DNA from: Deltaproteobacteria bacterium
Lineage (GTDB): Bacteria > Desulfobacterota > Dissulfuribacteria > Dissulfuribacterales > QOAL01
DNA length: 36,562 nucleotides
Reading direction: 5' to 3'
NCBI GenBank assembly: GCA_027067775.1
Contig: JAMOVK010000087.1
Location: 1 to 36,562 of the forward strand
Part shown: positions 5,812 through 30,164 of the stretch, one piece after another
Layout of the letters: every line of letters starts with the position of its first letter
Position numbering within the stretch: position 1 is the first letter of the stretch
Notes under the pieces: generated by a model
What the model saw: only the letters and a program-made list of their open reading frames with translations
The model's database searches: none
What the model was told of the DNA's origin: nothing
Program-made: the position numbers and the translations under genes

Positions 5812-6964
5812 AATATCCCCTGCCGGACTTTATGTTCATATCCCATTGTGCAGGAAAAAATGTCCTTACTGCTCCTTCGTTTCCTATGAAGGCCAGATGC
5901 ATATGGCCAAAAGCTATATCGAGGCCATAAAGAAACAGGTAATCTTGATAATTGACCAGGGCCTTACAAAGGGTCTCACTTTTAACACCGTCTACATAGG
6001 TGGGGGCACGCCCTCTTTGATCCAGGCAGAACTTATATCTGAGCTTTTGGAACATCTGTTCCTTCAGTTTCCAACAGTATCTCCAAAGGATATGGAGATC
6101 ACAATTGAATGCAATCCAGAGTCTGTAACAGGGTCTTGGATCAGGAAGGTAAAAAAAACCGGCATTAACAGGATAAGCCTTGGAGTACAGGACCTTTCTG
6201 ATAGGGGCTTAGGACTCCTTGGACGTATACATACGTCTAAAGAGGCCATAGATGCTGCAAGAATTATAAAAGACCAGGGTCTATCAAACCTGTCTCTGGA
6301 TCTTATTTACTGTCTGCCAAGTCAAGATCTTGATTGGCTCGAGAACACCCTAACACGGGCCATCTCCTTGGACCCGGCACATATCTCGGCATATGAGCTT
6401 ACTGTAGAGCCAGGAACAAGATTTGCCCGAAAGATGAAAAGGAAAACCCTCAAACTTCCAGACCAGGATGCGAGCCTCGCCTTGACCAGACTGGTGGAAG
6501 GTTTTCTGCACTCGCATGGATTCTTTCAGTATGAAATATCCAACTTTTCAAGACCGGACAGGGAATGTAAGCACAACATAAATTACTGGACAGGGGGACA
6601 ATATCTGGGCCTTGGATGTGGAGCTGTATCTTTTATAAATGGCATCAGGTACTTCAACATCAAGGACCTGGATACATTTATTAAAAGGATAGAAAGAGAT
6701 GACTGCGCCATTGAATACCAGGAAAAACTTGACAATGAGGCAAGATTCAGGGAAACGCTTGTCATGTGGTTGAGAATGACCTCGGGCGCAAAGGCCCAGG
6801 TGCTAGAAGAACGCTTTGGTATTGATCTTTTTACCTATTATGGGCCTCTTCTGGATAGGCTTGGTGAGAAAGGGGTTATTGAGGCAGACAAAGGCTCTGG
6901 TACACTAAAGTTAACAGAAAGGGGCAGGCATATATCCAACTACGTTTTGAGCTATCTGGTATGA
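5774..6964 (+). CDS. hemW: HemW-type radical SAM protein (heme chaperone)
   Basis: This 396-residue radical SAM protein has the cluster motif CRKKCPYCSF (Cys26, Cys30, Cys33). The position two after the third Cys is Phe, whereas true HemN coproporphyrinogen oxidases have a fourth Cys there; that absence marks HemW, now regarded as a heme-inserting chaperone and often mis-annotated as HemN. YIGGGTPSL and the NINYWTGGQYLGLGCGA segment are also typical, and the C-terminal winged-helix region ends in KLTERGRHISNYV. The start is uncertain: the proposed GTG (5774) lies inside rlmE with no strong ribosome binding site, and the conserved fold begins only near residue 17. The stop overlaps the next ATG by 4 bp. 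Confidence 0.88.
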   Translation: MLKSSSFARQKNKISPAGLYVHIPLCRKKCPYCSFVSYEGQMHMAKSYIEAIKKQVILIIDQGLTKGLTFNTVYIGGGTPSLIQAELISELLEHLFLQFPTVSPKDMEITIECNPESVTGSWIRKVKKTGINRISLGVQDLSDRGLGLLGRIHTSKEAIDAARIIKDQGLSNLSLDLIYCLPSQDLDWLENTLTRAISLDPAHISAYELTVEPGTRFARKMKRKTLKLPDQDASLALTRLVEGFLHSHGFFQYEISNFSRPDRECKHNINYWTGGQYLGLGCGAVSFINGIRYFNIKDLDTFIKRIERDDCAIEYQEKLDNEARFRETLVMWLRMTSGAKAQVLEERFGIDLFTYYGPLLDRLGEKGVIEADKGSGTLKLTERGRHISNYVLSYLV

Positions 6965-7638
6965 AGCCCAAACTTCAAACAGTGCTTATAGTAACAATCT
7001 TGAGCTTCTTTCTTAACGGGTGTGCAGACCTTGGAAGAAAATGCGCTGATGTCTGCAGTCCAGACGTTAAGATAATCAGCTATCATGTAAAAAAGCACTA
7101 TGAAAATATAAGGACCCTGGCCCAAAGACTCTATGCCAGAAATCCCTGTTACGAACCAGACCCTGACGTACGCATGGCAAAAATCCAGGCCGTTTTTGGA
7201 GAAAAATCCACATATCCTGTACCGGCTTCGATAAGGCTTCCAATGTCCCATGAACTGTTAACGCTTGCCTTTAGCAACAACCCGCCAATATCTGACAGGG
7301 TTCTAATCTTGATTCTTGGGCTCAAAAAGGGAATAGATGAGGCCTATGATACTGGTAGCGGCCCTTTCATTACAGGGTGTCAAATAGATGCCAGGAGGCT
7401 TGAACGCCTTTACAAAAACATCTCCCAGGTGAACTGGCGCCTTAAAACATATAAATCGGCCACAGGAACGCCTCTTTTTTTCACCAACCAGGCCCTGGAG
7501 TCGGGATATATCAATATGGGGTTTGAGGTTATAATGACTCAAATGTTGACTCGGATTCAAGATGATATTTATCTTAGAGGTGGCCTTGAAGGAAACCTTA
7601 CCTTCAGAATTGGCGCCCTGTTTTTATCAATTTTGTAA
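6961..7638 (+). CDS. Predicted lipoprotein of unknown function
   Basis: The product has 225 residues. Residues 1-21 form a lipoprotein signal peptide with lipobox LNGC, so Cys21 should be lipidated. The mature protein has a Cys-rich start (CADLGRKCADVCSP) and is mostly helical, with segments such as SHELLTLAFSNNPPISDRVLILILGLKKGIDEAY and a C-terminal GNLTFRIGALFLSIL. I do not recognise a named domain. Its ATG overlaps the hemW stop (ATGA), so it is probably translated from the same message. It could be an outer-membrane assembly or stress protein; nothing visible decides this. Confidence 0.75.
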   Translation: MKPKLQTVLIVTILSFFLNGCADLGRKCADVCSPDVKIISYHVKKHYENIRTLAQRLYARNPCYEPDPDVRMAKIQAVFGEKSTYPVPASIRLPMSHELLTLAFSNNPPISDRVLILILGLKKGIDEAYDTGSGPFITGCQIDARRLERLYKNISQVNWRLKTYKSATGTPLFFTNQALESGYINMGFEVIMTQMLTRIQDDIYLRGGLEGNLTFRIGALFLSIL

Positions 7639-7668
7639 TTAGGATACGGCTTAAAAAGGAGAAACGAG

Positions 7669-8457
7669 ATGTCCCAAGGACCAGAATCATATCTTGACGA
7701 TTCCAGACAGCTTACAGACGAAAGCACCTTTTGCTTTTCATGCACACCTGAGAAAAAGTGTTTTACCAGGTGTTGCTATGACATCAATCTAGTACTAATG
7801 CCCTATGACATACTCATGCTCAAGAACAAGCTCAACATGAGTTCGGGTGACTTTTTAAAAAAGTACACCTCGGTACATGTTGGCTTTGGCTCTGGACTGC
7901 CTGTGATTGTCTTAAAGATGGAAGGCCCCTATCTTAGATGCCCGTTTCTGGAAGAAGGCAAGGGATGCACTGTTTATGACTCAAGACCTGGGGCATGCCG
8001 GACCTATCCACTTGCCAGGATGGCAAAACGTAGCAAGGACACGGACGAGGTAGAAGAATTTTACTACATTGTCAGGGAACCAGACTGTCACGGATTCAAA
8101 GACTGTAAAGAATGGACAGTGAGGGAATGGAAGGAGAACGAAGGAATTGAAGAGTACAACAAAATGAACGACATATTCGGAGAACTGCTCCAGGCCAAAA
8201 CCGAATCTGGCATAGAGCATCTAAACGCTGACCAGATAGACATTTTCTACATGGGCTGTTATGACATAGACTCGTTCAGGCAACACTTCTTGGAAGGTCC
8301 AAACCTGGACAGGTATATGGAAGACCCTCAGGTAATAGAACTAATTTCAAAAGATGAAAAGGAGCTGTTGAAGTATGGGATGCGCTGGGTCAAGAGAAAA
8401 ATATTTGAAAAGGGATGCGTTGCATGCGCAGGTGCCTGTGGAACAGAAAACAAGTAA
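7669..8457 (+). CDS. YkgJ-type cysteine-cluster (CxxCC) protein
   Basis: The 262-residue protein belongs to the zinc/iron-chelating YkgJ-like family. The N-terminal cluster has Cys22, Cys25, Cys31, Cys35 and Cys36 (FCFSC ... CFTRCC), and the second half of the motif is CPFLEEGKGCTVYDSRPGACRTYPL near 87-115, the typical CPxL...C.iY..RP..CR.yP pattern. A longer C-terminal extension ends in another Cys cluster (KGCVACAGACG). The family is thought to bind a metal or Fe-S cluster; the reaction is unknown. AAGGAG about 10 nt upstream supports the ATG. Its 3' end overlaps the next small gene by 20 nt. Confidence 0.85.
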   Translation: MSQGPESYLDDSRQLTDESTFCFSCTPEKKCFTRCCYDINLVLMPYDILMLKNKLNMSSGDFLKKYTSVHVGFGSGLPVIVLKMEGPYLRCPFLEEGKGCTVYDSRPGACRTYPLARMAKRSKDTDEVEEFYYIVREPDCHGFKDCKEWTVREWKENEGIEEYNKMNDIFGELLQAKTESGIEHLNADQIDIFYMGCYDIDSFRQHFLEGPNLDRYMEDPQVIELISKDEKELLKYGMRWVKRKIFEKGCVACAGACGTENK

Positions 8458-8617
8458 AGAGCTGGTTTCAAGGTTGAAGAAGTTCTTGAAACACCCCCTT
8501 ACTGTTGCTGGCGCCCTGCTTCTTGCCAGGTTTGGGATTGATCTTTATACGCAACGCAAACTCGACAGTGTGAACAAGAAGAAAAGGCAAACAGAGGAGG
8601 AAAACCATGTCTCTTAA
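8438..8617 (+). CDS. Small membrane-associated protein, unknown
   Basis: This 59-residue frame, starting at GTG 8438, has a basic first third (ELVSRLKKFLKH), one short hydrophobic segment (PLTVAGALLLARFGIDLY) and a very charged tail (KKKRQTEEENHVS). A longer version starting at 8375 would overlap the CxxCC gene by 83 bp, so the short start is preferred. Neither start has a strong ribosome binding site. It overlaps both neighbours (20 nt before, 11 nt after), which fits translational coupling and argues for a real gene rather than a chance frame. No known domain is recognised. Confidence 0.5.
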   Translation: MEQKTSKELVSRLKKFLKHPLTVAGALLLARFGIDLYTQRKLDSVNKKKRQTEEENHVS

Positions 8618-8855
8618 GGCGTACATTCTGATAAATACCCAGATAGGAAAAACGGCAGAGGTTATAAAGCAGCTAAAGGAGATGGAAGAAATCAAACACC
8701 TTGATGTCATAATGGGGCCTTATGACATTATTGCTCAGGTAGAAACAGACTCCCATGACTCCCTGTCACACATTGTAATGCAGAGGCTTCAGGCCATAGA
8801 TGCAATAAAACATACCATGACGTGCACAGTGGTAAATCTGGACCAGACAGGTTAA
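8607..8855 (+). CDS. Stand-alone Lrp/AsnC ligand-binding (RAM) domain protein
   Basis: The 82-residue product is only the effector-binding RAM domain of Lrp/AsnC regulators, without the DNA-binding helix-turn-helix. It shows the beta-alpha-beta-beta-alpha-beta pattern: AYILINTQIGKTAEVIKQLKEM, then HLDVIMGPYDIIAQVETD with the conserved GpYDi motif, then a helix (LSHIVMQRLQAIDAI) and a last strand TMTCTVVNL. Such stand-alone proteins assemble into rings and are thought to sense small molecules such as amino acids. GAGGAGG about 8 nt upstream supports the ATG. It ends the plus-strand gene run; the convergent flagellar operon ends 35 bp later with no clear hairpin terminator between them. Confidence 0.85.
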   Translation: MSLKAYILINTQIGKTAEVIKQLKEMEEIKHLDVIMGPYDIIAQVETDSHDSLSHIVMQRLQAIDAIKHTMTCTVVNLDQTG

Positions 8856-8890
8856 GAAGTTGTTCCTGTGCAGATAGTATCGGGCCGATG

Positions 8891-9286
8891 TCAAACAGAT
8901 ACGCTTTTTATTGATATGATAAGCTCAACTTCTCCTGTTGTCAGACCTGTTGACTCGGCTATCTCGGCAATATCCACACCCTTATCATACAACAACAGCA
9001 CCTGTTCTTTGATATTGTTTTTCCCTTTGATGTTTACTGGATTTTTAGAGCTGTGATAACTCCTAAGATTATTCTCCAGGGCCTTTGCCAAACGGGCCTT
9101 TTCTTCAATTATGGCCTGCAGTCTATCAACCAGGGCCTGGCTCTCCCTTAGCTCGTTAATAAGACGTTCAAGCCTTTCCGGGCCTAGACCCTTTACCTTA
9201 AAAAAGAGCCAGACAATAAGAAAAAAGAGGACTACATCACAGCAGATTGAAACCGCTATCAATATCTCCATGGTTTCTGACTGCAT
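8891..9286 (-). CDS. DUF2802-type membrane protein, last gene of the flagellar operon
   Basis: The roughly 131-residue protein has an N-terminal membrane segment (EILIAVSICCDVVLFFLIVWLFF), a charged coiled coil (GPERLERLINELRESQALVDRLQAIIEEKARLAKALE) and a C-terminal helix-turn-helix-like motif (VLLLYDKGVDIAEIAESTGLTTGEVELIISI). This matches the DUF2802 pattern found near fliA and cheY in motile proteobacteria, where its role is unknown. The start is unclear: a TTG at 9292 overlaps the upstream stop (TTGA), ATG 9286 lies six bases on, and ATG 9268 is directly before the membrane helix; none has a good ribosome binding site. Position after the acidic FliL-like gene and the small basic gene suggests a flagellar job. 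Confidence 0.7.
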   Translation of the reverse strand: MQSETMEILIAVSICCDVVLFFLIVWLFFKVKGLGPERLERLINELRESQALVDRLQAIIEEKARLAKALENNLRSYHSSKNPVNIKGKNNIKEQVLLLYDKGVDIAEIAESTGLTTGEVELIISIKSVSV

Positions 9287-9288
9287 AT

Positions 9289-9579
9289 TCAAACTCGTAT
9301 GTCTATGTGCCGTACTGACTCGTTGTTGTCTTTTTGGGAGACTTTTTTCCCGGGTTTGGGAGGACCCTGTGGGTCGTCATGCCCTTTTGCAAGAACCGAT
9401 ACCTTGTCTTTTACAAGCAGGGGCCTGTCTTCCAGGCCATCCCTGTCTTGGTCTCCTTTGCCTTTTCCCTGTTTCTTTCCTCCTCTTCTTCTGCGCTCCT
9501 GCCTTATATTTGATGGATGGGGTCTGACCGGTGCTATCTGATTCAGGGGAGAAATATCCTTAACAAAATCCTCAGCCAT
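9289..9579 (-). CDS. Small basic Lys/Arg/Pro-rich protein in the flagellar operon
   Basis: The 96-residue product is highly charged and probably disordered: it contains RQERRRRGGKKQGKGKGDQD and PQGPPKPGKKVSQKD, with no hydrophobic segment and no recognisable domain. GAGG lies about 8 nt before the ATG. The gene fits tightly between the acidic FliL-like gene (whose stop is 4 bp upstream) and the DUF2802 gene, which supports it being translated. Small basic proteins at this place in flagellar operons of this lineage are uncharacterised; its high positive charge next to a very acidic partner (9584-10726) is suggestive only. Confidence 0.6.
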   Translation of the reverse strand: MAEDFVKDISPLNQIAPVRPHPSNIRQERRRRGGKKQGKGKGDQDRDGLEDRPLLVKDKVSVLAKGHDDPQGPPKPGKKVSQKDNNESVRHIDIRV

Positions 9580-9583
9580 CCTT

Positions 9584-10726
9584 TTACCTCAACAGATAGC
9601 CCATGAGTCTTATGTCTTCAATCTTTAGTGGAGAAAATTCCCGGTTAAGCCGGCTAAGAAGAGGGGCCCTGTAACGGCTGAGTATATCTCCCTGGATACC
9701 TCTCGAGATATCCAGCCCCTTGAGTTCCTGATAGATGATGTCTCTAAGCCAGGCCTGACGCCTCAAAAGCTCCTGTTTGGTTGTTGCATCTGGCACAATG
9801 AGTTCTACCTGGAGCTTGAAAAAGACAAGTTCGCCGCCGCTTTTGCCTGGAATGATAAATGGCGCCAGATCAATGGCCTCCTGCTGAGATACTGTCCCTG
9901 TAACTGGCTGTTGACTCTGGGCCTGTATGTTGCTCCTGTTAATGTTACCCCTGGCAGATGCCTTGGGTTTTATAACGTTATCAGAAGCAGTCACCTGCTG
10001 TTCAGTCACAGACGGAGAATTCCAAAGAAACCAAATGGCAATTACTGCAAGGATGGTCAAGATGGAAGACAGGCCCGTTATCAGCCATGGAAGCAAAGCT
10101 GAAATCAGACCTACACTAGCGCCCTGGCCACCGGTCTCATCTTGCTGTTGGCTCGAAGGAACAGACTGGTCCTGTTCTTGACCTGAATCAGACCCATCCT
10201 GGACATCTCTAGATTCTTGAGCCTCTACGCTCGAATCATCAGCGGCCCGTTCCTCACCCTCCACCTTGTCTTTATCCTGTTGGTCCTGCTGTTCTTTTTC
10301 TTCTTCTTCACTTATCTCGCTTAACAGCTCTTCCTCAAACAATGGGATTTCTTCTGCTTCTCCTTCATCCCAAAGCTCATCATCTTCTATGTTTATGCCT
10401 ATCTCATCATCGCTGCCATCTTGGACAGAATCTTGATCTGTTTTGCCCACTTTTTCAGCACTATCCACACCCTTCTGTGAAGAGACAGTCTCGGACACGT
10501 CCTCTGCAACAGATGCGGAATCGTCAGCCGTTTCTGAAAGAACATCCATTGAAGCAGTATCAACAGGTGCTTCCACATTGAGATCCACTTCCTCGTCAGC
10601 GATCCCGTCTTTATCCAGGCTTACCTGATCTTCCTTTACCGAACCGTTAACTTCTTCCATCTGGCGACTAAGTTCCCCTAATTTTTCATGTATATCAATG
10701 TATGTCTCAGTAAGCGGCTGCCCCAT
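9584..10726 (-). CDS. FliL-like membrane protein with long acidic N-terminal region
   Basis: The 380-residue protein has three parts. Residues 1-200 are a low-complexity acidic region with very many Asp, Glu, Ser and Gln. Residues about 206-236 (LISALLPWLITGLSSILTILAVIAIWFLW) are one membrane helix. The C-terminal 90 residues (VFFKLQVELIVPDATTKQELLRRQ ... LLSRLNREFSPLKIEDIRLMGYLLR) resemble the FliL periplasmic domain, with an IPG segment just before. With the acidic half in the cytoplasm it would be a second, enlarged FliL-like stator-ring protein beside the true FliL at 21186. It starts 12 bp after cheY with a weak ribosome binding site. The FliL-like call rests on pattern and context. Confidence 0.65.
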   Translation of the reverse strand: MGQPLTETYIDIHEKLGELSRQMEEVNGSVKEDQVSLDKDGIADEEVDLNVEAPVDTASMDVLSETADDSASVAEDVSETVSSQKGVDSAEKVGKTDQDSVQDGSDDEIGINIEDDELWDEGEAEEIPLFEEELLSEISEEEEKEQQDQQDKDKVEGEERAADDSSVEAQESRDVQDGSDSGQEQDQSVPSSQQQDETGGQGASVGLISALLPWLITGLSSILTILAVIAIWFLWNSPSVTEQQVTASDNVIKPKASARGNINRSNIQAQSQQPVTGTVSQQEAIDLAPFIIPGKSGGELVFFKLQVELIVPDATTKQELLRRQAWLRDIIYQELKGLDISRGIQGDILSRYRAPLLSRLNREFSPLKIEDIRLMGYLLR

Positions 10727-10738
10727 ATAAAGAATCTA

Positions 10739-11119
10739 TCATGCAAATATCTTTTCTATCTTTTCGCCAAGGGTTTCTGGAGTAAAAGGTTTGACTATGT
10801 AGTTGCTTACCTTTGCCTTTACTGCCTCTATGATATTTTCTTTTTGCGCTTCAGCAGTGACCATGAGAAAGGGAATGTCTTTGAGTTTCTCATCGGCTCT
10901 CACCTTTTTAAGAAGCTCAATGCCTGGCATCTTGGGCATATTCCAGTCTGAAACAATAAAGTCCACCTGCTCTTTTTGCAAAATCTCCCAAGCCACAGAA
11001 CCATCGTCTGCCTCAATAAAATTCTTGAAACCAAGCTGGGTAAGGATATTTTTAACTATCCTGCGCATCGTGGCAAAATCATCCACTATCAATATCTTCA
11101 TATCGTGATTTATGGCCAT
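10739..11119 (-). CDS. cheY: Chemotaxis response regulator CheY
   Basis: The 126-residue protein is a single receiver domain. The acidic pair is Asp13-Asp14, the phosphorylated residue is Asp58 (FIVSDWNMP), Thr88 is the switch residue and Lys110 (NYIVKPF) completes the site. The DWNMPxMxG segment and the match to CheY throughout make this chemotaxis CheY rather than an unrelated regulator. Phosphorylated CheY binds the FliM N-terminus to change motor rotation; here FliM and FliN both carry candidate docking motifs. AGGAGG lies 11 nt before the ATG. It follows fliA after a 78-bp gap with no clear promoter. Confidence 0.93.
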   Translation of the reverse strand: MAINHDMKILIVDDFATMRRIVKNILTQLGFKNFIEADDGSVAWEILQKEQVDFIVSDWNMPKMPGIELLKKVRADEKLKDIPFLMVTAEAQKENIIEAVKAKVSNYIVKPFTPETLGEKIEKIFA

Positions 11120-11197
11120 TTAGAACATTCCTCCTGACTCACTTTGGATTTTAGTTATTCATCGAACTTTTTACCGATATTCATAAATGAGCCGCTA

Positions 11198-12016
11198 TCA
11201 AAAGATCTCCTTTATCTGTGATAACTCGTTTTTATCAAACACCTCTGCAAGTTTTGTTCTGATGGTCATGACGGCCTTGGTATGCATCTGCGATATCCGG
11301 CTTTCTGTATAACCCATGATCTCTCCTATCTCCTTCATTGTCAGATCTTCAAAATAGTAAAGGGATACCACCAGTTTTTCCTTTTCTGGAAGTGCCTTGA
11401 TACAGTTTATTACGATCTCCTTTATCTCAAGCATGTTGAGCCTTTCAAAGGGATCGCTCTGATTGTCATCAGCAATCAAGTCAAAAAGATCTTCATCAGT
11501 GGCATCCGGCATCCGGCGCCTGATTGCATCTATGTCCAGAAAGGTTACGCCTCTGGTTTTGTCCAGAAGTTTATAGTATTCTTCCAAACTGATGCCCATT
11601 TCCTTGGCGATTTCTTCATCTTCAGGCATCCTTTCCAAACGCTTTTCCAACCTCTCTATGACCTGTTCTAATTCTGTTGCCTTTTTTCGCACGGAACGAG
11701 GCACCCAGTCCAGGTGTCTTAATTCGTCCAGCATTGCCCCTCTGATACGGAACTCTGCATAGGTCTTGAACTTGATCTTTTTGGATGGATCAAATTTTTC
11801 AATGGCATCAATAAGCCCTATTACCCCAGGCCCTATCAGATCTTCAGGCAGGATATGGGGAGGTAGCCTTCCCGCAAGCCTGTTTGCAACATAGTTAACC
11901 AAGGGGGAATATTTTATAATCAACTCTTCACGTTTTTTAGGAGTCAGACTGCGTCCCTGTCCGAAAAACTCCTCTGTATAGTCCTTCAATTTGGGGGCTG
12001 CACTTGTTCTTGCCAT
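11198..12016 (-). CDS. fliA: Flagellar sigma factor FliA (sigma28)
   Basis: FliA directs RNA polymerase to late flagellar and chemotaxis promoters. The 272-residue product has sigma70-family region 2 (YSPLVNYVANRLAGRLPPHILPEDLIGPGVIGLIDAIEKFDP and FKTYAEFRIRGAMLDELRHLDWVPRS), region 3 (LEKRLERMPEDEEIAKEMGIS) and region 4 with the helix-turn-helix (LYYFEDLTMKEIGEIMGYTESRISQMHTKAV), all typical of FliA/WhiG. The ATG at 12016 is chosen over a TTG at 12043, because GAGG lies 8 nt before it and the flhG stop ends 2 bp upstream. No FlgM anti-sigma gene is in the window. Confidence 0.95.
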   Translation of the reverse strand: MARTSAAPKLKDYTEEFFGQGRSLTPKKREELIIKYSPLVNYVANRLAGRLPPHILPEDLIGPGVIGLIDAIEKFDPSKKIKFKTYAEFRIRGAMLDELRHLDWVPRSVRKKATELEQVIERLEKRLERMPEDEEIAKEMGISLEEYYKLLDKTRGVTFLDIDAIRRRMPDATDEDLFDLIADDNQSDPFERLNMLEIKEIVINCIKALPEKEKLVVSLYYFEDLTMKEIGEIMGYTESRISQMHTKAVMTIRTKLAEVFDKNELSQIKEIF

Positions 12017-21870: not shown

Positions 21871-23529
21871 TCATATTAATGACGCTCGGGGAACACCAAA
21901 CAGGGCAATGACTTCCTTACCATGAATATATCCCTTTGAAATAACAGAGAATCTTTTCAGGCACATATTATTTTTCTTATATCTGACAAGGTCTTTCGCA
22001 TAAAGAATCAAAAGGCCTGTCTCTGGAACATCACATACCTTTTCAATTGAAGACAAAAAATGTATCCGGTTTGGATAGTATCTGCTGTAAAGACTGTATT
22101 TAAGGCCATCACCGTCTGGCCTGATTTTAACCAGAAAGACAGAACCTGCCTTTACCTTGGCTTCTGTATCCAAAACAAACCGTCTTCCTGATTCCCTCTT
22201 GGAAATCCCAGGCTGAATAACAAGGCTTACCCCTGCAGTGACGATGACAACAGAAACTAAAAAACTGGTAACTGATACCAGCCTGGTGTCAATTAAAAGA
22301 CGAAAGGCTCCAAGGACGAGTGTCCCAATGAAAAAAAACATTATAACTGACCACAAGGGCACGTTTGAATGAAAAGGATCCCAAAGATACAGAATCAGCA
22401 CAGCAACATAAAGGATGGCAACCAGAATCAAGGCCAGCTTTTTAAGAAGGTTTTTGGTCCCGGATGTCTCGCTTTCTATGGTTTGGGATAAAAAACAGGC
22501 CAGCAACCAGGCTATGGGAGGAAAGGCTGGAAGAAGATAGCGGCCGTGTCTTGACGCGGCAAGGAAAAAAGGCAGCAGGCTGCATACGCCAAAGACTGCC
22601 ATAAAGAGCCCAAAATCCGTTTTCATGTACTGTTTAAAGATTTTCCCCATTTCAACAAGCCTGTTTCTATAAAAAAGGCCAGTCAAAAAGAGCGCGGGCA
22701 GAAAAGAAACAATCAGAAACTCAATGTAGTAGTAAAAGGGTTTGTTTGCTGGACCAGAAACCCTCGAAAACAACTGGGCATTTAAGACCTGCTTCACAAG
22801 AGGCAGGCCCCCCTGGCTATAAATCCCAATCATATAGACCCCCATTACAAGGGCCGAAGTCAGGGAAACAAAAGACAGAAAAGAAAGAAGAGAACCGGTC
22901 CGCCTCTTAATAAAAAGAAAAACTACCGTGGGCATAACTGAAATCACAAGACCAATGGGCCCCTTAACAAGATAAGCAAGAGACATAAACAAGAAACCAA
23001 GCGCTCTTTTATGCCCCGGCTTTTTATCCTGGGTACCATAGCCATCAAAAAATGAGATATTTGCCAACAGGCAACAAAGGGCAAGAAACATGTCTATAGT
23101 GGCCCCTTCAGCCATTGACCAAAACTTTGGCGAGGCAGCAAGAATAAGCGACGATATCAGGGCCGCACTCTCTCCTGCATGTTTCTTGGATACCAAAAAC
23201 AAAATGATCAACATTGAGGCACCACTTAAAAGACTAGGCATGGATAGGCACATGGAGCAGACATGGCCTACAGGTTTACAAAATGCCAGGGAAGCAAGAA
23301 AATAGAGTGGCGGATAATCTGGATATGGCTTGCCATAGAGAAGGGGGCAGAAAAGCCCCTTTCCCGAAAACATGCCCCTGACAAAAAGCCCAATTCTTGC
23401 TTCCATGCCGTAAATATCACGCAGGCCTAGCACAAGCATGCCAGAGAGCAGAAAGAAAAGACAGACTGTTACCACCAACAAATAAGGCGACAAATCAATC
23501 CTGCCGCCTTTTGATACAGGCCTTTTCAT
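21871..23529 (-). CDS. ArnT/PMT-family (GT39/GT83-like) membrane glycosyltransferase
   Basis: The 552-residue protein has about eleven hydrophobic helices and the N-terminal family signature: a first periplasmic loop with an acidic residue pair region (GLRDIYGMEARIGLFVRGM, corresponding to the ExR/DE motif), then PYPDYPPLYFLASLAFCK and later AYLVKGPIGLVISVMPTVVF, characteristic of ArnT and PMT-like enzymes. They transfer a sugar from a polyprenyl-phosphate donor to lipid A or protein at the periplasmic face. The neighbouring ArnA-like genes make 4-amino-4-deoxy-L-arabinose a candidate sugar, as in ArnT. About 100 residues of soluble C-terminal region follow the last helix. The start ATG has no strong ribosome binding site. 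Symbol withheld because the substrate is not established. Confidence 0.85.
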   Translation of the reverse strand: MKRPVSKGGRIDLSPYLLVVTVCLFFLLSGMLVLGLRDIYGMEARIGLFVRGMFSGKGLFCPLLYGKPYPDYPPLYFLASLAFCKPVGHVCSMCLSMPSLLSGASMLIILFLVSKKHAGESAALISSLILAASPKFWSMAEGATIDMFLALCCLLANISFFDGYGTQDKKPGHKRALGFLFMSLAYLVKGPIGLVISVMPTVVFLFIKRRTGSLLSFLSFVSLTSALVMGVYMIGIYSQGGLPLVKQVLNAQLFSRVSGPANKPFYYYIEFLIVSFLPALFLTGLFYRNRLVEMGKIFKQYMKTDFGLFMAVFGVCSLLPFFLAASRHGRYLLPAFPPIAWLLACFLSQTIESETSGTKNLLKKLALILVAILYVAVLILYLWDPFHSNVPLWSVIMFFFIGTLVLGAFRLLIDTRLVSVTSFLVSVVIVTAGVSLVIQPGISKRESGRRFVLDTEAKVKAGSVFLVKIRPDGDGLKYSLYSRYYPNRIHFLSSIEKVCDVPETGLLILYAKDLVRYKKNNMCLKRFSVISKGYIHGKEVIALFGVPRASLI

Positions 23530-23565: not shown

Positions 23566-24621
23566 CTATACATCTCCTGGCCGTCCAAGCTCTTCTAGGC
23601 CAATATCCCCGGAATCCACATAAAAAGATATTGTCTTTTCCAAGGCCTCCCTAAGCCCTACTTTTGGCTCCCAGCCAAGTATCCTTTTGGCATTGGAGAT
23701 ATCCGGCACCCTGTATCCAACATCCTGATAATCAGGTCCATAGTAGTCTCGTGCTGAAACCTCGTTAAAAGCCACCTTTTCGGCAAGGTGGGCAAGATGG
23801 GGAAAGCCCTTTACCACCTCCAGCATCATCTGTGCCAGGTCCCTGATAGAATAGTCGTTGGCCGGATTTCCAATGTTGAAAATCCTTCCGTCACAACACC
23901 CATCTCTGTTTTCAATTATCTTAAACAGACAGTCGAGTCCGTCATCCACATAGGTAAAACACCGCCTCTGTTTTCCACCATCTACCAGAGTTATTGGTTC
24001 TCCCCTGAGGATGTGACCAAGAAACTGGGTCACCACCCTTGAACTTCCCTCCTTTGGGGTGGCAAGGCTGTCAAGGCCAGAGCCAATCCAGTTAAACGGC
24101 CTTATCAGAGTGAACTGGAGGCCTTGATGCTTACCCATGGCCCATATCACCCTGTCCATCATCTGTTTGGCACATGCATAAATCCATCTCTGTTTGTGAA
24201 TTGGCCCATAGACCAAATTACTTGTCTCTTCATTGAACCGCTCATCTGGACACATGCCATACACTTCGCTGGTTGAAGGAAATACGACCCTTGTCCCATA
24301 CCTTGCACACTGTCTGACAATGCGCAGGTTCTGCTCAAAATCAAGCTCAAAAACGGCAAGGGGATCTTTTACATATGTAGCAGGAGTGGCTATGGCCACA
24401 AGAGGCAGGCACAGGTCACACTTTTTTATGTGATACTCTATCCATTCCTTGTTTATGGAGATGTCTCCTTCGATAAAGTTTACATTGGGATGATTCATAC
24501 GCGCACCAAGCCTATCCCAGGCCAGGTCCATCCCATAGATCTCCCAATCCGTCTCCTCAATAGCCCTTCTGACAAAGTGGCTTCCTATAAAACCGTTGAC
24601 TCCAAGTATAAGTATTTTCAT
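23566..24621 (-). CDS. ArnA C-terminal-type UDP-glucuronate decarboxylase, stand-alone
   Basis: The 351-residue protein is an extended short-chain dehydrogenase with NAD motif GVNGFIGSHFVRRA (about 8-21), STSEVYG (near 118) and the YxxxK pair at Y-A-C-A-K (IYACAKQMMDRVIW). It resembles the C-terminal dehydrogenase of ArnA over its whole length, including RPFNWIGSGLDSLATPKEGSSRVVTQFLGHILRGEPITLVDGG and TYVDDGLDCLFKIIEN. ArnA oxidises and decarboxylates UDP-glucuronate to UDP-4-keto-pentose. ATG 24621 is preferred to GTG 24627, since AGGAG stands 9 nt before the ATG but only 3 nt before the GTG. In E. coli this activity is fused to the formyltransferase; here they are separate adjacent genes. 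Confidence 0.9.
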   Translation of the reverse strand: MKILILGVNGFIGSHFVRRAIEETDWEIYGMDLAWDRLGARMNHPNVNFIEGDISINKEWIEYHIKKCDLCLPLVAIATPATYVKDPLAVFELDFEQNLRIVRQCARYGTRVVFPSTSEVYGMCPDERFNEETSNLVYGPIHKQRWIYACAKQMMDRVIWAMGKHQGLQFTLIRPFNWIGSGLDSLATPKEGSSRVVTQFLGHILRGEPITLVDGGKQRRCFTYVDDGLDCLFKIIENRDGCCDGRIFNIGNPANDYSIRDLAQMMLEVVKGFPHLAHLAEKVAFNEVSARDYYGPDYQDVGYRVPDISNAKRILGWEPKVGLREALEKTISFYVDSGDIGLEELGRPGDV

Positions 24622-24645
24622 CTGCACTCTCTCCTCTGATTCATC

Positions 24646-25569
24646 TCATTCCAACACGACAAGGTCACGCAGTATCTCGTCAGGCATAGAACCATCCTTA
24701 TTAGGAGAGCCTTTGTTGCTAAAAGAGACGCTAAGGAGCCTCAAACATCCCTTTCCAGTCTGTACCATAACCTTTCCATCTACGATGCCAACGTGCCCTG
24801 CAGGCATACCAAGATCCAGGTCTTGATAGACCAGTGCGTCCCAGATGAAAAGCTTTCTGCCATAAAGGTGGCAAAAAGCACCGGGATATGGCCAAGTGAC
24901 TGCCCTTACAAGATTGTAGATAGACTGGGCATCCTGATTCCAATCTATCTTTCCGTCCTCAGGCCGCCTCCCGCCAAAATAGCTGGCCTTTGTATGGTCC
25001 TGTGGTGTTCTTGGGGCCTTTCCCTCAAGAAGCAGAGGAATATATTTTTTAAGCACCTGTTCAGCTGCATCTTCGAGTTTTTTAAAAAGGCTGTAGGCAG
25101 TATCCCTTGGGTCTATCCTTACTGCTTTTTGGCTGACTATGTCTCCGGCATCGGCCTTCAAGACCATATGATGAAGGGTTACTCCGCTTTCTCTTTCCCC
25201 GTGAACCAGTTGCCAGTTAACAGGGCATCGTCCCCTATACTTTGGAAGAAGAGAGCCGTGGAGATTCACGGCTGCAATTTTGGGGATAGACAGCACATCC
25301 TCTTTTACCATCTGTCTGAAATAACATGACAGAATGATCTTGGGTGATATTTCCCTCAAAACCCTCACCCACTTATCCTGGTTTATATTTTTGGGAAAAT
25401 AGACAGGTATACCGTAGCCTCTGGCAAGTTCTGCCAAAGAATCAAACCATATATTTTCCTCTGGACTGTCTTCATGTGTAAAGACCGCAGGAACCTGGAC
25501 GCCAAGCTCCATAAGTACTTTAAGGGCCCTGCAACCCATGTTGTGATATCCAAGAAGAACCACTGACAT
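24646..25569 (-). CDS. ArnA N-terminal-type formyltransferase, stand-alone
   Basis: The 307-residue protein has the formyltransferase fold of ArnA and methionyl-tRNA formyltransferase: the catalytic loop AVNLHGSLLPKYRGRCPVNWQLVHGE with Asn-His-Ser/Gly relation (N-L-H-G-S), SGVTLHHMVLKADAGDIVSQ with the catalytic Asp, and the C-terminal OB-like part (WNQDAQSIYNLVRAVTWPYPGAFCHL), a hallmark of ArnA. It would transfer formyl from 10-formyl-tetrahydrofolate to UDP-4-amino-4-deoxy-L-arabinose. It is not tRNA formyltransferase, as indicated by the EENIWFDSLAELARGYGIPVYFP segment and the neighbour. ATG 25569 has GGAG 8 nt before it; the TTG at 25590 abuts the previous stop and is unlikely. Confidence 0.88.
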   Translation of the reverse strand: MSVVLLGYHNMGCRALKVLMELGVQVPAVFTHEDSPEENIWFDSLAELARGYGIPVYFPKNINQDKWVRVLREISPKIILSCYFRQMVKEDVLSIPKIAAVNLHGSLLPKYRGRCPVNWQLVHGERESGVTLHHMVLKADAGDIVSQKAVRIDPRDTAYSLFKKLEDAAEQVLKKYIPLLLEGKAPRTPQDHTKASYFGGRRPEDGKIDWNQDAQSIYNLVRAVTWPYPGAFCHLYGRKLFIWDALVYQDLDLGMPAGHVGIVDGKVMVQTGKGCLRLLSVSFSNKGSPNKDGSMPDEILRDLVVLE

Positions 25570-25590
25570 AACTCTTTCTCCAGAAAACAA

Positions 25591-26274
25591 CTAGGCGCAT
25601 CTGGCCTTGGTCTTTGATCTAACGGTATGGGATCGCAAAAAGAGAAAAGAACTGTATTTCCATCTTGCATTCAAAACCAGATCTGTAACAAAAAGGGCTA
25701 TTAAGAGGCTGCCGACAAGGTCTGTTAAAAAGTGGGACTGGCCAACAAGCCTCCCAAGGCTTACAAACAGAGCCATTGCAAACCAAAGATACCGTAGCCT
25801 TGGAAAATAATGACAAAGTATCAAGGCTACGGAAAAGGCAGAGGCAGCATGCCCTGAGGGGAAGGAATGAAAATCGTTTGCCGTGCAAAAAGGACATATT
25901 TGCCAACTGTCAAGACCCGTCCCAGGCCTTGGTCTGCCTATCAAAAATTTAAGTAGCTGACCAATTATGCCTGTAATGCCAAGTGCCAAGGTGGCCCTGA
26001 TCAAGTAGGCCTTAAATCTGGACCTGTCTCCTGTACTGATTAAAATCAGGGGAGAAAGGATAACAACCAACAATGCAAGTGTAACGCCGTTTCCAAGAAA
26101 GTCTGCAGCATGAGCCCAAAGGGTGGCAAATCTGCTGTTGGATAATGGAAGAAGAAGGTCGTGAAGCAGCCTGTCAAAGGGAAACAATAGGGACATTGCG
26201 ATGAGAAATAAAGCAAAAAGACACAAATAAAATTTCGTCTTTTTTGAAAAGACGCAACCGCTTGACGGGAACAC
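25591..26274 (-). CDS. PAP2-family membrane phosphatase
   Basis: The 227-residue protein has several membrane helices and all three PAP2 motifs: KFLIGRPRPG (KxxxxxxRP, C1), FPSGHAAS (C2, with the catalytic His) and LGRLVGQSHFLTDLVG (C3, ending in the H-x3-D pair). PAP2 enzymes remove phosphate from lipid phosphates such as undecaprenyl pyrophosphate or lipid A 1-phosphate (LpxE). Lying between an Arn-type formyltransferase and an ATPase, a lipid A or polyprenyl-phosphate role is plausible. The proposed GTG start has a weak ribosome binding site, and a perfect 8-bp hairpin (26236-26254) sits in the first 15 codons, so the true start may lie downstream. Confidence 0.85.
   Translation of the reverse strand: MFPSSGCVFSKKTKFYLCLFALFLIAMSLLFPFDRLLHDLLLPLSNSRFATLWAHAADFLGNGVTLALLVVILSPLILISTGDRSRFKAYLIRATLALGITGIIGQLLKFLIGRPRPGTGLDSWQICPFCTANDFHSFPSGHAASAFSVALILCHYFPRLRYLWFAMALFVSLGRLVGQSHFLTDLVGSLLIALFVTDLVLNARWKYSSFLFLRSHTVRSKTKARCA
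26236..26254. other. Perfect 8-bp hairpin in the 5' part of the PAP2 gene
   Basis: CGTCTTTT and AAAAGACG flank a 3-nt loop (TTG on the plus strand). It is 23-41 bp after the ATPase stop and is followed on the minus strand by AAATTTT. It resembles a weak terminator or a structure that limits PAP2 translation, but lies within the proposed coding frame. Confidence 0.45.
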
Positions 26275-26276
26275 TG

Positions 26277-28532
26277 CTACCAGATTCCCCTCATGCCAAA
26301 GTCTTTTCTTATCTGGTCTATTCGCCTTTCAAGCCCTACCCGCCACTCGGCATGAATCCTGGCACTTGGAGGTGCTATAAGCTCCGGGAGGCCATAGACC
26401 AGCCTGTCAGCCGCCTGACTTGCTTCAATAACCGCCTCTATACTCCTGGCGCCAAACTTGTACTTGGCAACAAGAAGCCGCAAAAGCAGGCCAGAGGTCT
26501 TCCTGGCAGCCTTTTTCCAGTGGGTTTCCATCTGATGGGCAATAATAAAGGCCCTTTTTAAAAGAATCCTCTTTAAGCGTTCAAGTTCTACACCCGAGGC
26601 CGAATCCCTGAGAAGCTCCTCTGGTATATCTATTCCATCAATATCCAGCACCACCCTTAACCGGCTCATAAAATCTGGAATCTTCAAGGCCTTGATATGA
26701 CGTAATTCCTCGTGGTCTTCGGCCTTGAGCATTGCCTCCATGGCAGAATACGAGTCCTTAACGCCGCCAGCAAATACAAACACGCTTCTACCTATATATC
26801 TGGGAATGCCGTTAACATAAGTAACCCCATCCTGCATAGAGGGAAGGAAATAGCGAAGATAGCCAAATTCGTTGTTATCATACTTGCAGTCAAACTCGTC
26901 CCAGAAAGCAACAGGCACCCGTCCCTTGGCAACACTGGCCCGGACAAGATCGATTGCCGAGTTGATCTCCTCAGGTCCTGCAAACTGGGTAAGGTTGAAT
27001 TCAAAAAATTCGAACGGATTAGAGTCAAAGTTCTCAGCAATGACCTTTGCAACCTGAACAACCGCAAAGGACTTGCCAGAACCCGGAGGACCAAACACAC
27101 CTATACAAAGTGGCCTTTTGCAGACCTCCCGCATTACATAACTGTTCATTACACCCTTTAGTGTCACAACCGGGGCCATCTCAGCAGGATCCGTTGTCCT
27201 CAGGTGGCCTATGTTAAACATGCGCAGATCTTTAAAACCCTGTTTCCTGTTGACCTCCTCTTTCAGATTCTTCAGTACTTGAAGTATCACCGAGATATAG
27301 CCGAGGTTTTTTGACCTATCCTCTATATGGCAGGTACTTCTCTTCTCAACATTGGTGAAAAACTGCCTAAAGGCCTCCTTCCTCTCTTCATTCCAGTACT
27401 GGCAAGAGACCTGCTCCAAAATCTTTTCCATCTCCATGCTGTAAGGGGGCAATTCAAAGAAACAGGGATCGGATTCTGTTTCCAAAAAGGAACACGGAAC
27501 ACCTCTGGGATAATTTGAAGAAAAGTCGAGATCCGGAAACTCTAGCCCCTTTGAAAATGAATACCCCTTTTGCCTCAAGAGCTCCCAGTTCATCAGGACT
27601 CGTTTTGAAAAGTCAAAAAAGAAACTCCTCTCACTGGGGATCTTTGCAAGCCTCAATGCATCCAGGGTTATCATGGCAGTAACCAATGTGTCATAACAGG
27701 GGACAGAACCCCTCTGCCTGTTGGACCCTCTTTCTGGCAAACTGGCCCTTTTGTGTCTAAACATCATGTGTCGCGGGCCTACATACAGAAGGGCATTTGG
27801 AAACATCTCTACCAGTATGTGGCATTTGAATCGCATGGATGAAGGCCTCCAAAGGCCAACCTCTTCAGACTTCAGGGCCCTGATACACATGGCAACCAGT
27901 GATTCCCAGACTACCGCACTGTCCATTTCCATGCGTGTGGTCTCAAGATCAGACAGACGGCAAAACAGCATGAACTTGTTACCAAAGGAATCCGCCCAGT
28001 CCTGCCAATGGGCTGGAGTGATGCCAAGGGCCATAACCCATGCGCTTGGATTTTTCTTCTTGAGCTCTTGGGCTATCTTCGGCGGATTTCCACCATCATC
28101 CACGATTATTATGCCAGAGTTGTCCTGAAATTTCTCCTCGTTCTGCCCTGACAGATCAACCGTATCTGGTTTTTGAGGACGTCCTCCAGGAGGTAAAATC
28201 TGGCGCATCATGAACCATCCATGACTCGGGTCCTCAGCAATGTCTCCCCTTCTGTAAAATATCTGGAAGACATCCCGGGACTTTCCATAGGATACGGTGT
28301 TAATTTTGGGAGACAGTTCAGAGGGCGTCAGAAAGGCAGAAAGCCAGGTAAGACACTGCTCAAGCCTTCCCTCTTCAACAGTAATATCACCTGCCAGAAG
28401 CTCAATAAAGTCCCCTGGATTGTATCCATAGGCAGGCAGGCTGCCCTCGGCAATCATGCTGACTTCTTTTATTGGCAGATTTGTGATGCGGACCCGTGAA
28501 CCAAGCAGTAACAATTTTTTGTCTGGATTCAC
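26277..28532 (-). CDS. Large AAA+ ATPase of the bacterial RyR-domain-associated type
   Basis: The 751-residue protein ends in an AAA+ domain (about 440-690) with Walker A GPPGSGKS (481-488), Walker B VAFWDEFD (541-548; Asp545, Glu546), a sensor-like VFVFAGG (584-590) and MSRLR (622-626, possible arginine finger). EFFEFNLTQF (508-517) and LRYFLPSMQDG (559-569) fit the ATPases I remember from bacterial RyR-domain proteins. Upstream, IIIVDDGGNPP (141-151), SAWVMALG (163-170), LFCRLSDLE (189-197) and LVEMFPNALLYVG (240-252) resemble the alpha/beta (PfkB-like) domain linked to them. No RyR domain is evident. It could be a substrate remodeler or nucleotide sensor; the function is unknown. It starts at GTG with AAGGAGGGG upstream, and the PAP2 start follows 2 bp after its stop. 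Confidence 0.6.
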   Translation of the reverse strand: MNPDKKLLLLGSRVRITNLPIKEVSMIAEGSLPAYGYNPGDFIELLAGDITVEEGRLEQCLTWLSAFLTPSELSPKINTVSYGKSRDVFQIFYRRGDIAEDPSHGWFMMRQILPPGGRPQKPDTVDLSGQNEEKFQDNSGIIIVDDGGNPPKIAQELKKKNPSAWVMALGITPAHWQDWADSFGNKFMLFCRLSDLETTRMEMDSAVVWESLVAMCIRALKSEEVGLWRPSSMRFKCHILVEMFPNALLYVGPRHMMFRHKRASLPERGSNRQRGSVPCYDTLVTAMITLDALRLAKIPSERSFFFDFSKRVLMNWELLRQKGYSFSKGLEFPDLDFSSNYPRGVPCSFLETESDPCFFELPPYSMEMEKILEQVSCQYWNEERKEAFRQFFTNVEKRSTCHIEDRSKNLGYISVILQVLKNLKEEVNRKQGFKDLRMFNIGHLRTTDPAEMAPVVTLKGVMNSYVMREVCKRPLCIGVFGPPGSGKSFAVVQVAKVIAENFDSNPFEFFEFNLTQFAGPEEINSAIDLVRASVAKGRVPVAFWDEFDCKYDNNEFGYLRYFLPSMQDGVTYVNGIPRYIGRSVFVFAGGVKDSYSAMEAMLKAEDHEELRHIKALKIPDFMSRLRVVLDIDGIDIPEELLRDSASGVELERLKRILLKRAFIIAHQMETHWKKAARKTSGLLLRLLVAKYKFGARSIEAVIEASQAADRLVYGLPELIAPPSARIHAEWRVGLERRIDQIRKDFGMRGIW

Positions 28533-28622: not shown

Positions 28623-30164
28623 TCAGTTCCATTGCCAGATTGGCCTGTCAACCCGCTCCGGCCTTTTAGTCTGTGCCGAATCAGGAACAGATACACCCTC
28701 TTGTTGCTCCCTTGAATTCATGTCTGGAGTAGACGTTGACTGAATCTGTGTAGCGGAATCCGGCTGGTCCGTCTCCATTCCCGTACGGTTCCTGATAGTA
28801 TCGGGCTGAGAACCTGCATCAAGGGTCTGAAGACCTCCGTCTTGTTTTGCAACAGCATGGCCGTTTGAGCCATCTCTAGAAACAAAGGACTGCTGTTGAA
28901 CAACTTCTGGCTCTTCTTCCGTCCAGGGCCATAGCCAAGAAAACCAACCCTTTTCCTTTTTCTTTTCCACCTTAATGTTTTCTATCTTGCTAAGGGCCTC
29001 GTCTAAAGGAACAGGCTCTGGAATTTCAAAACTAACTCTTGGAGGAGGCGGGACAGGGAGTTTCTGTGAAGACGAAATCACCACGGGCTCCTTATCAGAC
29101 TCTTGCTTTTGAAGCCTTGTCTCCTTGGCCTGGGAGACAAGCTGTGCACCGCCTTTATTTTGCTTGTCATTGCCAAAAGGCCACAGCCAGGAATACCAGT
29201 TTCCCTTTCCTTCCTTGTTCGGTTTATCTGCTTCGGCACCCTTACTCCCATGACCTTCATGCTTCTGTACCCCTGAAGAAGCCTCTTCAGTCTTTGGTTT
29301 TTCAATGGCATCCTCGTCATCATCAGGATCATATACATCTGGAATGGGCATGAAGGAAGAATCATCTTCATCTTCTGAAGAGACAGAAGCAGTCTTCGGG
29401 CTGCCAGAGTCATTTTCAAGATTTTGATCCTCTGGTGCGTCATCACCCACATCATATACATCGGGAAGAGGCATAAAAGAGTCATTTTCCACTTCACCCT
29501 CCTTCCTGACCGTGCTGCTAGTCCCGGATCTTCTTCTTTGCTGCTCGATCTCCTCCAGTTCGTCCTTTTCTAGCTTTTCCCTGACAAGGATATCCGGATG
29601 AAGCCTGGCCAAGGCAAACTCGTCATCTGTCTTAACCTTTTTAGAATCAGGAACCGACAGGGCACTAAAATCCGAAACTGTATTTGCAACCAGAACCTGG
29701 CCTGTATCCTTTACCGTGTCTGAAATCTTGGCTGAAAGCAGCGCCGCATCCTTTGCCAACATATCTAGAGTGGGAGCTTTCAAGTCCCACCGTTTGATGA
29801 CGGTTCCATCCCTTGGAGACCTGAGTTCAAAAGAGGCCTCATAGTGATTCATGGCCTTCACCACTTTTCCTGTAATAACAAAATCAGCAACTGATTTCAG
29901 ACCTGACCTGGTACTTCCCTCTACCAGAACCGTATCTATCCCTTCAGAGGATAGCCTTGTCAAAAGCATCTTGGACAGGGCCTTTCCCACATAATTAATG
30001 GATGAAGGCTCTGAGACCACAGTTTCCATTGCTACCAGAGGGGTCTTTGACGATGCACAGCTATCCCCTAACGGGATTAAAAAACCGATCAGCAGGGCAA
30101 TGGCCCCTATCATACTAGGTAAAAATAAAAATCTTTTATTCATCATCATTTGTTCGATCATCAA
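28623..30164 (-). CDS. Exported repeat-containing protein of unknown function
   Basis: The 513-residue protein has an N-terminal membrane or signal segment (FLFLPSMIGAIALLIGFLIP, about 12-31). Residues 40-165 form an ordered domain (LVAMETVVSEPSSINYVGKALSKMLLTRL; DFVITGKVV) that looks like the TolB/FlgO-like alpha/beta domain of envelope proteins. The remainder is charged and low in complexity, carrying two repeats: SFMPLPDVYD (229-238) with SFMPIPDVYD (270-279), and NWYSWLWPF (322-330) with GWFSWLWPW (406-414). No named domain is recognised for these. A proline strip PVPPPP (370-375) separates them. The start is the ATG overlapping the NtrC stop (ATGA). No clear lipobox is present (DSC at 34-36). 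Confidence 0.65.
   Translation of the reverse strand: MMIEQMMMNKRFLFLPSMIGAIALLIGFLIPLGDSCASSKTPLVAMETVVSEPSSINYVGKALSKMLLTRLSSEGIDTVLVEGSTRSGLKSVADFVITGKVVKAMNHYEASFELRSPRDGTVIKRWDLKAPTLDMLAKDAALLSAKISDTVKDTGQVLVANTVSDFSALSVPDSKKVKTDDEFALARLHPDILVREKLEKDELEEIEQQRRRSGTSSTVRKEGEVENDSFMPLPDVYDVGDDAPEDQNLENDSGSPKTASVSSEDEDDSSFMPIPDVYDPDDDEDAIEKPKTEEASSGVQKHEGHGSKGAEADKPNKEGKGNWYSWLWPFGNDKQNKGGAQLVSQAKETRLQKQESDKEPVVISSSQKLPVPPPPRVSFEIPEPVPLDEALSKIENIKVEKKKEKGWFSWLWPWTEEEPEVVQQQSFVSRDGSNGHAVAKQDGGLQTLDAGSQPDTIRNRTGMETDQPDSATQIQSTSTPDMNSREQQEGVSVPDSAQTKRPERVDRPIWQWN

Follow-up and report, generated by a model that had tools for sequence, protein, structure and literature searches.

A branch of PfkB–AAA+ ATPases that lacks the RyR domain of its relatives is repeatedly linked, in sulfur bacteria, to the genes of two unrelated terminal oxidases, cytochrome bd and cbb3, and to Rrf2 regulators. 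The member described here is encoded in the window (the whole 36,562-nucleotide stretch of DNA analysed) by a 751-residue open reading frame with a GTG start, found by ORF calling on the minus strand. Quite possibly, this branch functions in oxygen physiology, most likely with the bd and cbb3 oxidases. The loss of the RyR domain, taken with the recurrent sites in oxidase operons across sulfur bacteria, suggests that the ATPase probably helps anaerobes handle oxygen, perhaps as an oxidase maturation or maintenance ATPase. The library searched, outside which most subscription literature lies, yielded no description of the ATPase, and the protein is apparently uncharacterised. The gene and its parts are as follows.

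26277..28532, minus strand: PfkB-fold / AAA+ ATPase without RyR domain, 751 aa (ORF calls, orthologues, Pfam scan)
27423..28532, minus strand: predicted N-terminal PfkB/ribokinase-fold domain, residues 1-370 (AlphaFold model, Foldseek/VIA-align)
27684..27710, minus strand: GSVPCYDTL, residues 275-283, putative position of the PfkB GAGD anion hole (register assigned by eye)
26373..27215, minus strand: AAA+ domain, residues about 440-720 (homology to paralogue, AlphaFold model with pLDDT 88, fold matches)
27069..27092, minus strand: Walker A, GPPGSGKS (G, P, G, G, K and S invariant in 50 sequences, RyR-type included)
26889..26912, minus strand: Walker B, VAFWDEFD (DEFD invariant in the same 50 sequences)
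26655..26678, minus strand: PDFMSRLR, with candidate arginine finger R624
26436..26456, minus strand: FGARSIE, with candidate sensor-2 arginine R696

All the motifs picked out by a preliminary description of this DNA are present in the product: IIIVDDGGNPP (residues 141-151), LVEMFPNALLYVG (240-252), Walker A (481-488), EFNLTQF (511-517), Walker B (541-548), LRYFLPSMQDG (559-569), and VFVFAGG (584-590). The Pfam scan of the protein returned weak, sub-threshold AAA matches over residues 479-549 and no match to PF00294, to a DNA-binding domain, or to the RyR domain (PF02026), whose absence the same description had proposed. It had also proposed a PfkB-like fold for the front half, and structure prediction agrees. 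The full-length AlphaFold model, built from 22 orthologues, is poor in the AAA+ half and good in much of residues 1-370, with pLDDT of 85-95 over much of residues 50-260. On this model, the front domain matches ribokinase-family kinases by Foldseek (2nwh, E 1.6e-7) and by VIA-align (7c1z, Z 16.9 over 271 residues at 4.0 Å), giving residues 1-370 a predicted PfkB/ribokinase fold. The assignment stands on this predicted fold because hhalign against RbsK/PfkB gave no sequence support (E 0.44, Prob 0.1).

The front domain resembles PfkB/ribokinase-family kinases in its predicted fold, with Z up to 16.9, but departs from them in its fusion to an AAA+ domain and in lacking any Pfam or profile match and recognisable GAGD and GG motifs, with an Asp at the expected site. 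When aligned by eye, GAGD appears to correspond to VPCYD, in which the glycines are absent and the Asp, D281, is near-invariant in 67 orthologues. Given the missing sequence-level match and the retention of the Asp alone, the predicted domain may have a ligand-binding or altered-kinase role rather than that of a standard kinase.

The AAA+ half was repaired by refolding residues 425-751 together with RyR-type relatives, which raised a model with pLDDT 88. Its best matches are the D2 domains of ClpC, ClpB, and ClpA and the AAA+ domains of NtrC-class proteins, with Z about 15-16. Walker A, Walker B, and the fold place the protein in the AAA+ superfamily, and a β-hairpin (strands E146-149 and E152-155 of the model) directly before strand E160-165 places it among the AAA+ proteins with a hairpin before sensor 1, the HslU/ClpX/Clp D2/Lon-like PS1BH type. 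The hairpin and a GAR sensor-2 motif are held in common with the Clp/HSP100 D2 class. However, identity to that class is only 13-17%, and the ATPase has a single AAA+ domain and a different N-domain. In the sequence alignment, R624 is invariant and R626 and R696 are nearly so, RyR-type relatives included; these three are candidate arginine-finger and sensor-2 residues. A plain MoxR or dynein-like AAA+ protein was considered and rejected, as Pfam scores fall below cut-off (bpMoxR 19.2 bits against 27); the structural list is mostly Clp D2 and NtrC-class, which does not in itself exclude other classes. Sequence searches of the PDB returned P-loop-level or weak AAA+ matches only.

The relatives of the ATPase are found among RyR-linked proteins, as had been suggested from its motifs. 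A paralogue in the same genome (G000:C47, locus L002) combines the same AAA+ domain (33% identical over 267 aa, E 3e-36) with a true RyR domain (PF02026, E 2.9e-15). It is flanked by a TIR_2+DUF4384 gene and a DUF4062-NACHT-WD40 gene, and its combination of the same AAA+ domain with RyR, beside TIR and DUF4062-NACHT, shows the family assignment to be right. The RyR-type AAA+ ATPases have in common with the window's protein the motifs FGPPGxGKSF, EFNL(T/S)QF, FWDEFD, MQDG, FVFAGG, PDFxSRLR, and GARS, and several of them also start with a PfkB-like N-terminus, as judged by eye. In contrast to them, the window's ATPase has no RyR domain, lies outside TIR/DUF4062 conflict operons, and is vertically inherited, and its orthologues in other genera are attached to oxidase operons. 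According to a 2026 preprint (PMC13232231), phage proteins with RyR domains act on cyclic ADP-ribose signals by degrading or sequestering them. By analogy, this result would fit a nucleotide-signal role for the RyR-bearing cousins, and the loss of RyR here would then be meaningful. As a separate observation, the paralogue's region (G000:C47, locus L054, ORFs 2280-3281-, 5992-8616+, and 8671-11592+), which groups the RyR AAA+ gene with TIR_2+DUF4384 and DUF4062-NACHT-WD40, is likely a conflict island.

With such paralogues, which sit with TIR, DUF4062-NACHT, and similar genes, the ATPase might be expected to be a conflict or defence protein still, that is, an RyR-type system minus its RyR domain. 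This is very unlikely. The gene is mostly single copy, slow-evolving, and vertically inherited; no TIR, DUF4062-NACHT, or other defence genes were recognised among the recurrent neighbours of orthologues; PADLOC gave no match better than mad8 (E 0.031, in the P-loop region); a viral search gave no homologue; and a plasmid search gave RyR-type or partial relatives only, with no orthologue.

Of 41 relatives, 28 have an orthologue, as do 29 of 46 genomes across the class and 74 of the 146 genomes sampled from a second order; nearly all the orthologues are full length apart from contig ends. Presence in 28 of 41 relatives and across the second order puts the ATPase far beyond chance. The 67 full-length orthologues are at least 58% identical to the window's protein (58-95%), with 245 of its 751 positions near-invariant. 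Their tree separates the window's order from the second order, in two clades that match taxonomy as vertical inheritance predicts. On this comparison, the ATPase is best read as a gene of housekeeping type that is passed on vertically in two related orders of sulfur bacteria, probably Dissulfuribacterales (the window's order) and Desulfobulbales. Culturable hosts probably exist: Desulfurivibrio alkaliphilus AHT2 (PMC5016858) probably carries an orthologue, and Dissulfurimicrobium hydrothermale Sh68 (PMC8780430) probably carries one close downstream of cydAB.

Two departures from the usual gene were seen. One 4.8-Mb genome (G542:C1) has three almost identical copies, near 0.358, 3.306, and 4.700 Mb (L168, L169, and L170), with about 18 extra codons inserted near residue 350. 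In locus L091 (G256:C1:1285-2310), the match covers only residues 411-752 even with upstream sequence present, a shortening that is possibly decay; the host is a 1.7-Mb genome without cydA or COX1 matches.

The recurrent surroundings of the ATPase are those of terminal oxidases. In the second order, cydA (cytochrome bd) or ccoN (cbb3) lies within 5 kb on the same strand in 37 of the 74 ATPase genomes and on the opposite strand in none. The linkage covers 12 of 29 genera and 5 of 8 families, and its probability by chance is about 5e-22 by genus under a uniform-placement model. Within five genes of the ATPase, cydB is present in 12 genera of 7 families, cydA in 11 genera of 7 families, and an Rrf2 regulator in 8 genera of 5 families; the neighbours were confirmed as CcoN, CcoO, CcoG, FixH, CydA, CydB, and Rrf2. 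The arrangements seen are cydAB-ATPase, ATPase-cydAB, cydA-ATPase, and ATPase-ccoN, and the ATPase tree requires no fewer than 12 switches between them. The ATPase is followed by cydA in some species of genera g267 and g268 and by ccoN in other species of these genera. Three families (f112, f113, and f121) have the ATPase ahead of genes for CcoN, CcoO, a small Cco-like protein, and CcoG, to which FixH and a copper P-type ATPase are added in some cases. In the window's order, two families (f6 and f7) have cydAB, of the shorter CydA type, and then the ATPase, with one to three small ORFs between them in two of the three loci. Same-strand adjacency to oxidase genes thus recurs among the orthologues; in the window itself, and in its genus, the ATPase has no oxidase gene next to it.

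Co-occurrence tells a different story from linkage. In the window's order, cydA is present in 28 of 29 ATPase genomes versus 6 of 17 without the ATPase (p 9e-6, uncorrected for phylogeny), a correlation that rests largely on a single lineage, genera g6 and g21 of family f2, lacking both genes. In the second order, there is no correlation, cydA being present in 56 of 74 ATPase genomes versus 62 of 72 without it; hence linkage, not co-occurrence, carries the argument. Among genomes of the second order, those with cbb3 have the ATPase in 13 of 14 cases (p 0.001) and those with an aa3-type oxidase in 2 of 20 (p 7e-5), both uncorrected for phylogeny. Both cydA and ccoN are missing from ten ATPase genomes, of which one has an aa3-type oxidase, and in family f71 (all 9 sampled genera) and in f83 the ATPase is unlinked to oxidase genes. 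The ten genomes and the missing cydA correlation together indicate that the gene is not strictly an oxidase subunit helper. Because bd and cbb3 have no common subunit, the dual linkage also speaks against a chaperone dedicated to one subunit and would allow for a role in regulation or oxidative stress.

Such a role could take the form of membership in an Rrf2-controlled oxygen or oxidative-stress regulon, in which the ATPase would act on transcription, proteostasis, or nucleotide signals and its co-location with oxidase genes would reflect co-regulation. This is the leading alternative, a tentative one. In its favour are the nearby Rrf2 regulators and the peroxiredoxin, flavodiiron protein, desulfoferrodoxin, and ferritin-like genes near the ATPase in some other loci, and it accounts for two unrelated oxidases as well as for ATPase genomes without cyd or cco. 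The AAA+ model also resembles NtrC-class activators. However, the ATPase often lies inside or directly against an oxidase operon, not in a stress cluster of its own, and the Pfam scan found no DNA-binding domain. NtrC-class activators carry a GAFTGA loop, and this loop is not in the ATPase sequence.

Action in oxygen physiology through the oxidases themselves could proceed as follows. The ATPase would assemble in the cytoplasm as an AAA+ ring. The kinase-fold front domain, seemingly without the usual kinase motif yet with many invariant residues, would bind a ligand and gate the ring. ATP hydrolysis would then drive remodelling of an oxidase subunit or an O2-damaged client, for assembly or repair. 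The closest analogy for the remodelling step is NorQ acting on nitric oxide reductase; NorQ is a MoxR AAA+ protein needed for iron insertion into that enzyme (PMC9976466). The likeness to NorQ/NorD and other MoxR chaperones is that of an AAA+ gene beside a haem-copper O2/NO reductase, in the cbb3 case. Unlike them, the ATPase is below the MoxR Pfam cut-off, includes a domain of PfkB fold, and is linked to cytochrome bd too. Among the annotated members of the recurrent neighbour clusters, no VWA gene was recognised as a partner. According to published work, the likely function of cytochrome bd in anaerobes of this kind is O2 detoxification (PMC7478628; PMC11451228).

A more specific version, in which a conflict-type nucleotide-signalling ATPase has been domesticated, with the kinase-fold domain sensing a nucleotide- or NAD-derived signal and the ring remodelling or protecting bd and cbb3 oxidases under oxygen, is rather unlikely; if true, it would define a new class of oxidase-associated AAA+ machine. 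What can be said of both orders is that they keep a slow-evolving ATPase, often attached to whichever high-affinity oxygen reductase is used. If the ATPase works on oxidases, it would be a new AAA+ machine for bd and cbb3 biology, would help to explain the oxygen tolerance of strict anaerobes, and would be a case of a conflict-operon family reused for core physiology.

The distribution of the gene could instead follow a sulfur-disproportionating lifestyle, with the ATPase a factor linked to disproportionation and the oxidase link secondary. The probable host D. hydrothermale is an obligate disproportionator (PMC8780430), and genomes with a full-length YedE-type gene (PF04143) have the ATPase in 24 of 33 cases versus 50 of 113 (p 0.005), an association uncorrected for phylogeny in which full-length YedE is a rough proxy. 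However, no recurrent YTD, dsr, or apr linkage was recognised in the neighbour clusters, except for a DsrE-like gene near the f71 copies, which is on the other strand. A disproportionation factor is improbable as a reading of the gene.

Two further proteins recur in these loci. In families f6 and f2, an unannotated protein of 190-240 aa is encoded either immediately before the ATPase or upstream of cydA (L048:169-744, L043:2119-2703, and L092:10677-11408); the one member scanned against Pfam had no match. A protein of about 80-126 aa, with one hydrophobic segment and the motif MTVG(K/R)(T/S)LWKII, precedes cydA in many loci (L085:5320-5574, L141:4925-5188, and L105:8835-9215), the window's genome included, and is possibly a small oxidase-associated subunit.

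The immediate neighbours of the ATPase in the window are of another kind.

28623..30164, minus strand: fast-evolving 513-aa protein upstream of the ATPase, neighbour within the genus only (no match in Pfam scan)
25591..26274, minus strand: PAP2-family phosphatase, 2 bp downstream, kept as neighbour only within the genus (Pfam E 2.5e-23)
24646..25590, minus strand: ArnA-type formyltransferase as a separate gene, genus-only neighbour (PRK06988, 369 bits against a cut-off of 316)
23566..24627, minus strand: UDP-4-keto-pentose/UDP-xylose synthase, the ArnA dehydrogenase half, as a separate gene, genus-only neighbour (PRK11908, 571 against 294)
21871..23529, minus strand: PMT_2 / ArnT-like glycosyltransferase (57 bits against the ArnT cut-off of 567)

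Beyond the ArnT-like gene are flagellar genes. The preliminary description had placed the ATPase 2 bp upstream of a PAP2 start and next to split ArnA and ArnT. The 2-bp gap does separate the ATPase stop (TAG) from the PAP2 start (GTG), and the two ArnA halves are separate genes that reach NCBIfam equivalog cut-offs; the ArnT part of the claim fails, as a score so far below its cut-off does not allow that name. From this setting, the ATPase had been proposed to have adapted to the Arn/PAP2 locus as a sensor of an envelope lipid or nucleotide sugar. The order ATPase-PAP2-ArnA halves-ArnT-like is indeed kept on one strand in the window and in several congeners, with the 2-bp junction to PAP2 in the window. 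However, a survey of gene neighbourhoods found PAP2, ArnA, or ArnT-like neighbours beside no orthologue outside the window's genus, the formyltransferase matches near the ATPase in f83 resembling methionyl-tRNA formyltransferase by sequence. The PAP2 and ArnT-like proteins are about 40-56% identical in most congeners, diverging much faster than the ATPase at about 89-90%, and the identity of the ATPase stays high whatever the neighbourhood. Confinement to one genus removes support for adaptation to an envelope lipid or nucleotide sugar, and that reading, weakened further by the low ArnT-like score, was rejected as hardly credible. The suggestion that the locus is a new context for a conflict-type ATPase survives in spirit, with terminal-oxidase operons, not an envelope locus, as the recurring context. 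The place of the gene beside Arn/PAP2 genes in the window is a relocation at the level of the genus and has no demonstrated meaning.

Further details of these neighbours were noted. In one congener (L033), a 338-aa ORF splits the PAP2 gene in two, which looks like the result of a gene insertion. The protein at 28623-30164, which also has no NCBIfam match, shows 30-49% identity within the genus and has a pair of W-rich stretches that resemble each other, WYSWLWPFG and WFSWLWPW.
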